Shown: one piece after another, positions 32,183 to 34,730 of the stretch
Layout of the letters: each line of letters opens with the position of its first letter
Position numbering within the stretch: the stretch's first letter is position 1
DNA from: Bacillota bacterium
GTDB taxonomy: Bacteria; Bacillota; UBA994; PWPR01
Assembly (NCBI GenBank): GCA_028280325.1
Contig: JANQLZ010000067.1
Coordinates: 1 to 64,000 of the forward strand
Length of the DNA: 64,000 nt
Direction: 5' to 3'
The notes under the pieces: generated by a model
The model's database searches: none
The model's input: only the letters and a program-made list of their open reading frames with translations
Told to the model about the DNA's origin: nothing
Program-made: the position numbers and the translations under genes

Positions 32183-32389
32183 TCATTTAATCTTCCAGCT
32201 AAAATTAACGAACAGTTCATCAATACTAACCTCTAAAATATCTCGAATCTTATTGGACAGTTCCAAGGTAGGGTTTCTACTGCCTGCCTCAATTTTATAG
32301 TAGTACGATGTTGAAATTTTTAATTTCCTGGCCATGTCCGCTGGGGTATAGCCCTTTTTTTTTCGCTGCCTTTTTAATACATACCTCAC
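32183..32389 (-). CDS. XRE-family transcriptional regulator (short)
   Basis: A 68-residue helix-turn-helix protein. The GTG at 32389 is chosen because AAGGAGGAGG precedes it; the upstream open frame would run through the promoter. The HTH is YTPADMARKLKISTSYYYKIEAGSRNP. It is transcribed divergently from a second XRE protein at 32534, and the two share an operator region. Confidence 0.82.
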   Translation of the reverse strand: MRYVLKRQRKKKGYTPADMARKLKISTSYYYKIEAGSRNPTLELSNKIRDILEVSIDELFVNFSWKIK

Positions 32390-32408
32390 TATAAACCTCC
32401 TCCTTGCT

Positions 32409-32507
32409 TGGACATTTTGTCTTAATAATATCATACTGGACTTATTGTACAGTGTCAACAATTGCTTCCCATTTTGTCAAAACTATTTTTTTGTGGACTA
32501 TTTGTGC
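32409..32507. promoter_or_regulatory. Divergent promoter with repeated operator boxes
   Basis: For the leftward gene TTGACA (32453-32458) and TATGAT (32430-32435) are 17 bp apart. Four related boxes lie in the region: TGGACATTTTGTCT (32409-32422), TGGACTTATTGTAC (32437-32450), CCCATTTTGTCA (32468-32479) and TGGACTATTTGTGC (32494-32507). The first is a dyad, GAC-N5-GTC. They probably bind one or both XRE proteins. Confidence 0.6.
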
Positions 32508-32533
32508 TAAACTATAGCTGGAGTGATTGCTAT

Positions 32534-32947
32534 ATGACTTTTGGAGAGAAGATTAAAGAGCTTCGTAAGCAGAAAAATTTAAGCCGAAGTGACGTGGCTA
32601 AAATGCTGGGCGTCACTTATTGGGCTTTAGCTAAATATGAGTTGGGTGAACGTAGCCCTGACCATGCCTTATTGGTCAAGTTTGCCAATTTCTTCGATGT
32701 TTCAATTGATTATTTACTGGGCAATACAGATATTAGAAACCCAATTAAGGAACTGGTTCAGGAATCCGTTACCGGCTATGATGAAAACTATTTGCTGTAT
32801 AAAACTCTCTTATCGCCTGAACTGCAGAGCCTTAATCCAGAGTATTTTCGTCTGGCATTAGAAATGCAACGGGAAAAGATTAGTATTGAAAGCATTTGGA
32901 AAATTATCGATGTGATGAAGTCTGTTAAAACCTCAAGCAAAAAGTAG
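32534..32947 (+). CDS. XRE-family transcriptional regulator
   Basis: A 137-residue protein. The start is the ATG at 32534 (GGAG upstream); the frame before it adds a spurious hydrophobic leader. The N-terminal HTH is MTFGEKIKELRKQKNLSRSDVAKMLGVTYWALAKYELGERSPD, closely like SinR/Xre repressors, with FANFFDVSIDYLLGNTD closing the domain. The C-terminal half is helical and of unknown role. It is divergent from another XRE gene. Confidence 0.85.
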   Translation: MTFGEKIKELRKQKNLSRSDVAKMLGVTYWALAKYELGERSPDHALLVKFANFFDVSIDYLLGNTDIRNPIKELVQESVTGYDENYLLYKTLLSPELQSLNPEYFRLALEMQREKISIESIWKIIDVMKSVKTSSKK

Positions 32948-33075: not shown

Positions 33076-33570
33076 CTACAAACGGTTACTGGACTTTGTG
33101 ATGTTGAGATTATACCCTTCAAGCTTTAACATCTGCTGCTTTAAGTCAAGTCCACCGCCTGCCGAAAATCCACCAGCACCCGTGCTGGATAAGACGCGAT
33201 GTCAGGGAACAAACAGCGGCAGCTGATTACGTCTCATAACCTGGCCAACTGCTCTGGAAGATTTAGGCCGGCCAATTGCTTTGGCTACCTTACCATAAGT
33301 AGTGACCTGACCCCATTGGCAATTGTGCTGCAACCAAATCATAACCTGCCGAGTAAACTGAGGAAAATGATCTGCCTTCAGCATTTCAAAAAAGTTCACT
33401 TCCTGCCCTCTGCCATAAGCCTGTAATTTCTCGGAAAGCTCCGGCCACTCCCCGGTAACAGCCCCTTCAGGGACCTCTCCAGTTAAAGAGGCATAGGTTA
33501 TCTGTTTGTATTTGTTAAACGCTACTGAAATCCTCCCCCATGGCATTTGCTCAATTAAATAAGAGTTCAT
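33076..33570 (-). CDS. ogt: O6-methylguanine-DNA methyltransferase, probable selenoprotein (TGA at catalytic Cys)
   Basis: Read through an in-frame TGA (33202-33204), the gene encodes 164 residues, the normal size for Ogt/MGMT. The N-terminal part has VTTYGKVAKAIGRPKSSRAVGQVMRRN. The active-site PCHR appears as VP-TGA-HRV, so residue 123, the alkyl-accepting cysteine, is encoded by TGA. The family C-terminus follows in frame: LSSTGAGGFSAGGGLDLK and LKLEG, ending at TAG 33076-33078. A hairpin just downstream fits a bacterial SECIS. The protein transfers alkyl groups from O6-alkylguanine to its own active residue. The start overlaps the upstream aminotransferase stop (ATGA). The alternative is a recent nonsense mutation, which the intact frame argues against. 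Confidence 0.85.
33169..33190 (-). promoter_or_regulatory. SECIS-like hairpin downstream of the in-frame TGA
   Basis: On the minus strand CCAGCA pairs with TGCTGG around a CGGG loop, extendable by neighbouring A-U pairs. The stem begins 13 nt after the TGA and the loop lies about 20-23 nt after it, with G in the second loop position. Spacing and loop G agree with the bacterial SECIS model bound by SelB. No folding program was run. Confidence 0.65.
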
Positions 33571-34730
33571 TTATTATACTCCTTTGCCAGTTCGGTAATA
33601 GCTTGTACGGTATAGCTGATATCTGCTGGGGTATTAAAATAACCGATACTTAAACGGATTGTTCCCAACGGAAAAGTGCCAATAGTTTGATGGGATATTG
33701 GTGCGCAATGGATACCTGAGCGAGTCATAATTCCATATCTTTCGTCCAGCAGGATACTTGCTTCACCCATATCCAGGTTTTCAATAGTAATTGAAATGGT
33801 CGGCACCTGTTTCTCAGTATTACCCGAATAATATATTGTTACAAAAGGTATTTCTCTCAAACCTGCGACCAGCTGTTCTAGTAATGCCTGTTCATGCCTG
33901 CGGATATTTTCTAAACCGATGTCCAAAACAAATTTCACCCCAGCTCCTAATCCGGCAATGCCAGGGGTATTGTGGGTACCGCTCTCAAATTTCTCCGGCA
34001 TCATCTCTGGCTGTAACTGACTGGCAGAGCTGCTTCCGGTACCACCCTGAATGACCGGCTTGATTTCCCTGGCAGCCCTCTCACTTAAGATCATACCGCC
34101 TGTACCGGGTGGGCCATACAGCGCCTTGTGGCCGGTAAAAGCCAAAATATCTAAACCCAGATTTTGAAAATCCAGATCACAGTATCCCGCTGTTTGAGCG
34201 CAATCAGCCATTAACAACACCTTGTTCCTCCTGGATATCTCTGCGATCTCAGCTAAAGGGAGGATAGTACCGATAATGTTTGAGGCGTGATTGACAAGAA
34301 TCAGCCTGGTCTTTGCCCTGATTTCCTGTTCGATTTGCCCTGGGTCAATCTGCCCTAAAGCATTAGCCTTTACCCAGGATACTTCAATCTGCTTCTCCTG
34401 CTCTAAACAGCGCAGGGGTCTGGTAACAGCATTATGCTCCATACTGGTGGTAATAACATGATCGCCCTCTTTTAACAGGCCCAGCAGTACCATATTTATG
34501 GACCAGGTAATACCTGGAGTAAAGACAATGTATCTACTGTCTGCTACATTAAACAGTCTGGCAAGTGCAGATCTGGCATCTAATATTTTTCTTCCCGCTT
34601 CTATAGCACAGCCATAACCACCTCGGCTCGGGCTGCAGCCATTATGCTGCATAGTATCGTTAACTGCCTGATAAACACTGGCAGGCTTGGTCTGGGTTGT
34701 TGAAGCATTATCTAAGTAACATTTCTTCAT
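33567..34730 (-). CDS. Class V aminotransferase, cysteine desulfurase / selenocysteine lyase-like
   Basis: A 387-residue PLP enzyme of the NifS/CsdB superfamily, resembling the subfamily TIGR01977. The N-terminus is CYLDNASTTQTKP. The PLP lysine is in FTGHKALYGPPGTGG (Lys202). The catalytic Cys is in RSGIHCAPISH (Cys342), a loop shared with selenocysteine lyases. It would release sulfur or selenium from Cys or Sec. Its stop overlaps the start of the selenoprotein-like ogt by four bases, so the two are translated as a pair. This fits a link to selenium use, but the substrate is inferred. Confidence 0.82.
   Translation of the reverse strand: MKKCYLDNASTTQTKPASVYQAVNDTMQHNGCSPSRGGYGCAIEAGRKILDARSALARLFNVADSRYIVFTPGITWSINMVLLGLLKEGDHVITTSMEHNAVTRPLRCLEQEKQIEVSWVKANALGQIDPGQIEQEIRAKTRLILVNHASNIIGTILPLAEIAEISRRNKVLLMADCAQTAGYCDLDFQNLGLDILAFTGHKALYGPPGTGGMILSERAAREIKPVIQGGTGSSSASQLQPEMMPEKFESGTHNTPGIAGLGAGVKFVLDIGLENIRRHEQALLEQLVAGLREIPFVTIYYSGNTEKQVPTISITIENLDMGEASILLDERYGIMTRSGIHCAPISHQTIGTFPLGTIRLSIGYFNTPADISYTVQAITELAKEYNK

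Follow-up and report, generated by a model that had tools for sequence, protein, structure and literature searches.

A predicted selenocysteine-containing O6-alkylguanine-DNA alkyltransferase in a Bacillota genome and its homologues with UGA at the alkyl-acceptor codon

The ogt gene and its product

The window analysed here is the whole 64,000-nucleotide stretch of a Bacillota contig; its features of interest, an ogt gene with an in-frame TGA, a hairpin behind that codon and an upstream NifS-like gene, are collected in Table 1. The NifS-like gene ends in an ordinary TGA stop that overlaps the start of ogt by 4 nt (ATGA). Translation of ogt with TGA as selenocysteine (Sec, U) gives a single frame in which U is residue 123 and the stop is TAG (...NQLPLFVPUHRVLSSTGAGGFSAGGG...LKLEG...*); the only internal TGA occupies the place of Cys in the PCHRV motif.

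Table 1. Features of the ogt locus (positions in the window).
Feature	Position	Strand	Basis and remarks
NifS-like PLP enzyme gene	33567..34730	-	TIGR01977 cysteine desulfurase family; conserved in the congener
Predicted Sec-containing O6-alkylguanine-DNA alkyltransferase gene (ogt)	33076..33570	-	164 aa including Sec123; frame, profiles, alignment with human AGT, structural model
TGA at the alkyl-acceptor position (human AGT Cys145), predicted to be read as Sec	33202..33204	-	Alignment; same codon in 8 other genomes
SECIS-like hairpin CCAGCA[CGGG]TGCTGG	33173..33188	-	Loop 33182-33179; comparison with homologues

The translated frame passes the profile cut-offs of PF01035 (E 1.2e-24; 86.4 bits, cut-off 27) and TIGR00589 (79.4 bits, cut-off 46.4). 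In the alignment U123 falls on Cys145 of human O6-alkylguanine-DNA alkyltransferase (AGT), and N115, H124, R106, Y92 and E151 correspond to human N137, H146, R128, Y114 and E172, all of which are kept. Seven aligned sequences were the input to an AlphaFold model (mean pLDDT 74, with low confidence at residues 129-140), which matches solved two-domain AGTs (E ~2e-9, TM 0.77); the structures of alkyltransferase-like (ATL) proteins match it far less well. Alignment and model thus place the product in the AGT fold family by its two-domain structure and its base-flipping and active-site residues. It shares this fold and these residues with the classical AGT/Ogt proteins (human MGMT, E. coli Ogt/Ada-C), from which it differs in having TGA instead of a Cys codon at the acceptor site. 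A sequence-only reading of the window had put the TGA exactly at the alkyl-acceptor Cys, within a full-length 164-residue frame running to TAG, and the alignment and the translation bear out both claims.

A UGA at this site might also be read as another residue, for instance as Trp by a near-cognate tRNA-Trp, which would turn the product into an ATL (PWHRV) that flags damage without repairing it. ATL proteins do carry Trp at the acceptor site, TGG is one step from TGA, and the same genome has a separate PWHRV protein. We nevertheless consider this reading highly improbable: ATLs are single-domain proteins of ~110 aa with a non-nucleophilic residue such as Trp at the acceptor site, whereas the 164-residue window protein includes an N-terminal domain and its model is that of a full AGT, nine genomes keep the UGA, and there is Sec machinery as well as a hairpin in position.

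Sec decoding and the hairpin downstream of the UGA

The source genome carries the complete Sec-decoding trait, namely tRNA-Sec (73 bits, cut-off 47; also found by ARAGORN), SelA (606 bits), SelB (390 bits) and SelD, whose own frame contains an in-frame UGA (GGGUASK). In its glycine reductase cluster, GrdA (CFVU) and GrdB (UGTC) likewise have in-frame UGA codons. All the standard sequence signs thus agree that this organism decodes UGA as Sec. GrdA, GrdB and SelD (L087:4187-6023; L009:13592-14629) share one contig with tRNA-Sec. The sequence-only reading had inferred a selenoprotein and named a search for the Sec machinery as a check; all four components are there, and the conservation of the TGA, the hairpin comparison and the frame after the TGA add to the support for that inference.

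The loop of the hairpin in the window gene starts 19 nt past the TGA, close to the distance of about 20 nt at which a G-loop hairpin had been noticed earlier. Hairpins were scored by a criterion of our own, distinct from bSECISearch, that requires a stem of at least 5 bp and a G-containing loop, with loop starts of 17-19 nt allowed in the Cys genes. All nine TGA genes described below have such a hairpin (loop start 18-19 nt after the UGA) versus 1 of 31 Cys homologues (Fisher p 4e-8, a value that weighs less than it appears to because it ignores the relatedness of the sequences). The first seven TGA genes served to tune the criterion; the last two (from genomes G207 and G087), found later, were a fresh test and both have such a hairpin. 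Under synonymous recoding a hairpin is expected in 2.5 of the nine TGA genes. It appears in 0.9% of recodings of the window gene, in 3.3% of those of its congener and in 21-54% of those of the homologues outside the genus; part of the signal thus stems from the Gly-rich coding sequence. What lifts the window hairpin above chance is the homologue comparison (9/9 seen, 2.5/9 expected, 1/31 among Cys genes).

The fold energy of the single sequence is not significant (z -0.18 for 45 nt), and a local 30-nt piece alone gives z -1.97. Folding of 33150-33204, proposed with the sequence-only reading, gave a nonsignificant z of -0.84, with another fold winning. Covariation among the five sequences in the same register shows two pairs with double changes and a score above that of every slid register; pair counts are limited to these five because the two f1 genes use a shifted register, and on this ground a base-paired structure homologous across all nine genes was rejected. 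Elsewhere in the genome, GrdB has a hairpin (CGTTGC[GGT]GCAACG) at 18 nt and SelD one at 17 nt; GrdA was expected to have one at the shared position, but its best hairpin lies 25 nt downstream. The NifS-like gene next to ogt ends in an ordinary TGA, and no hairpin follows it.

Homologues with UGA at the acceptor codon and their gene neighbourhoods

About 400 genomes of the phylum were searched with profiles and patterns, and in nine of their genes the acceptor codon is TGA: those of the window's own genome and a congener (G000, G001); G006 and G010; G037; G061 and G099; G207; and G087. The alignment of homologues that had been suggested as a check for Cys or TGA at this site thus returned TGA in the congener and in seven further genomes, which belong to other families. 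SelB is present in 7 of the 7 TGA genomes tested (G207 and G087 not among them), which is consistent with Sec decoding without being discriminating, since the Cys-AGT genomes tested alongside also have SelB. Two further pattern matches (G100/L059 and G251/L089) lie outside any ogt frame and were set aside as chance. A search of the genome contigs for related loci returned only a distant archaeal match.

The congener gene keeps the TGA and is 63% identical overall to the window gene, with amino acid identity of 58% before the TGA and 85% after it and pN/pS of 0.34 before and 0.18 after (synonymous sites being saturated). The two genomes also have in common the gene order NrdD, NifS-like, ogt, DinG-like. 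Decay of the frame past the TGA in close relatives, which would have counted against a selenoprotein, was looked for and is not seen. The retained codon, together with the higher identity and lower pN/pS behind it, is strong evidence that the TGA is neither a random nonsense mutation nor a read error. The UGA could instead be a true stop, leaving a functional 122-residue N-terminal part, or the gene could be a pseudogene or carry a sequencing error; standard gene calling would end the frame there, and the neighbouring gene does use TGA as an ordinary stop. We judge this a highly unlikely account, given that an independent congener has the same TGA with conservation stronger after than before it, that seven further genomes repeat it, and that the part beyond it holds the equivalents of H146 and E172 and Gly residues shared by every aligned sequence.

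A tree of the nine TGA and 31 Cys proteins was calculated from an alignment whose acceptor column had been masked. Five changes of the TGA label are required on it, and a single TGA clade is rejected (p-AU 0.0018; 0.008 with seven TGA genes). The nine genes accordingly fall into about five lineages and not one clade; the number is an estimate in view of the long branches and weak deep forks, and gains and losses of the TGA cannot be told apart with certainty on this tree. The G207 gene (L098:3006-3550) comes from a different family and yet nests among the G006 and G010 genes, which suggests horizontal transfer or contamination of the G207 genome.

In G006, G010, G061 and G099 the TGA gene is presumably the repair enzyme of the cell, since it is the only PF01035 protein found there. 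The Sec form is not the only AGT of the window's own genome, which also has a gene for a fusion of a Cys-AGT with an HhH-GPD domain, overlapped by one for an AraC-HTH and AlkA protein (contig C109, L020:164-2367); these two form an adaptive-response-like pair. The PWHRV protein mentioned above, encoded on contig C11 (L021), is the third AGT-family gene of this genome.

The NifS-like protein beside ogt scores 468 bits against TIGR01977 (cut-off 377); its nearest alternative family is the SclA selenocysteine lyase, for which it stays below the cut-off (413 bits, cut-off 525). Methionine gamma-lyase takes the neighbouring place in G010 and G006 and CysK in G061 and G099, so that in three lineages a sulfur amino-acid PLP enzyme gene adjoins the Sec-ogt or, in one genome, is separated from it by one gene. 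In G037 a D-cysteate lyase-like gene lies farther off, and a DNA-3-methyladenine glycosylase-like gene follows the TGA gene. A sulfur/selenium PLP enzyme is found within 1.5 kb in 3 of the first 4 lineages versus 1 of 31 Cys loci; none stands beside the G207 and G087 loci found later, which rules out that such an enzyme always accompanies Sec-ogt. The idea arose from the very data that speak for it and fails at the two later loci, and we therefore treat it as a lead only. The partner enzyme (NifS-like and SclA-related here, methionine gamma-lyase or CysK elsewhere) might supply selenium for the costly acceptor or recover it from Se-alkyl-selenocysteine, so that selenium would cycle locally around a suicide enzyme; we regard this as improbable. 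Between ogt and the DinG-like gene the window also has two small, divergent XRE/RstR-like repressor genes (32183-32947), and the congener has no ORF of at least 60 aa in this interval.

The same PLP neighbours in three lineages could point to another main role for an inserted Sec, such as accepting other alkyl groups or metal/metalloid groups, or redox sensing, and redox proteins make up the majority of prokaryotic selenoproteins with a known function (PMC2398784). Against such a role, which we hold to be very unlikely, stand the full set of AGT active-site residues, the four genomes with no other PF01035 protein, the glycosylase-like gene in G037 and the lack of a CxxU or UxxC motif.

Proposed mechanism and place in the family

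We propose that the window gene very probably encodes an O6-alkylguanine-DNA alkyltransferase with selenocysteine as its alkyl acceptor, produced by SelB-dependent recoding. SelB would bind the hairpin just past the UGA and deliver Sec-tRNA-Sec, so that the ribosome would read through UGA123 to give the full 164-residue protein; this would flip out O6-alkylguanine, and a one-step transfer of the alkyl group to the selenolate would yield Se-alkyl-Sec, so that the protein would be spent after a presumed single turnover. Reactivation, raised as a question by the sequence-only reading, and multiple turnover gained nothing in support, engineered Sec-AGT being known only to be active. In that engineered human protein, Sec145 repairs DNA and protects E. 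coli from MNNG, and it tolerates the N137A change that the Cys form does not (PMC4150793). It shares the acceptor site with the window protein and is active in vivo; it differs in being made by EF-Tu-dependent UAG decoding and in not being natural. A likely benefit of Sec would be a low-pKa selenolate that is already deprotonated and hence relies less on activation by the active site. The window protein keeps the equivalent of Asn137, so its Sec does not make up for a loss of that residue.

A Sec "methylated-DNA-protein-cysteine methyltransferase" was listed with one GOS sequence in a 2008 GOS table (PMC2398784), the same family appears with Carboxydothermus ABB14497.1 in a 2022 review (PMC9312934), and a 2026 review lists a Sec-AGT family and credits it to Zhang and Gladyshev 2007 (PMC13188914). 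The open-access literature searched held no biochemical study of a natural Sec-AGT. Sec-AGT is therefore a published predicted selenoprotein family (since about 2007), so far uncharacterised, and the window gene is well supported as a member of it. Like the predicted methyltransferase of Carboxydothermus (COG0350/PF01035), it is a predicted UGA-encoded Sec AGT in a Sec-using bacterium. As in the published family, its acceptor codon is an in-frame UGA between conserved flanks, its homologues include Cys forms and, by our own hairpin criterion, it has a bacterial SECIS-like hairpin with G in the apical loop shortly past the UGA. The G061 protein has PUHRV at the same codon; the window gene represents a separate lineage (35% identity) with a NifS-like partner gene instead of CysK. 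The algal MDP (PMC7539508) is likewise an AGT-family selenoprotein and differs by its eukaryotic SECIS and decoding. Two findings, the occurrence in several lineages and the comparison of hairpins, are additional to what was found in the text of the published Sec-AGT papers.

AGT is a one-shot DNA-repair protein that removes alkyl groups from damaged guanine, and Sec is costly and usually reserved for enzymes that turn over. To spend it on a single-use protein is odd; if a selenium cycle did operate at these loci, the selenium of the spent protein would not be simply lost. The TGA set corrects gene models that end at the UGA and would otherwise be called truncated. With nine natural cases in an estimated five or so lineages, and Cys relatives at hand, it becomes testable whether Sec brings faster repair, a wider substrate range or some other gain.
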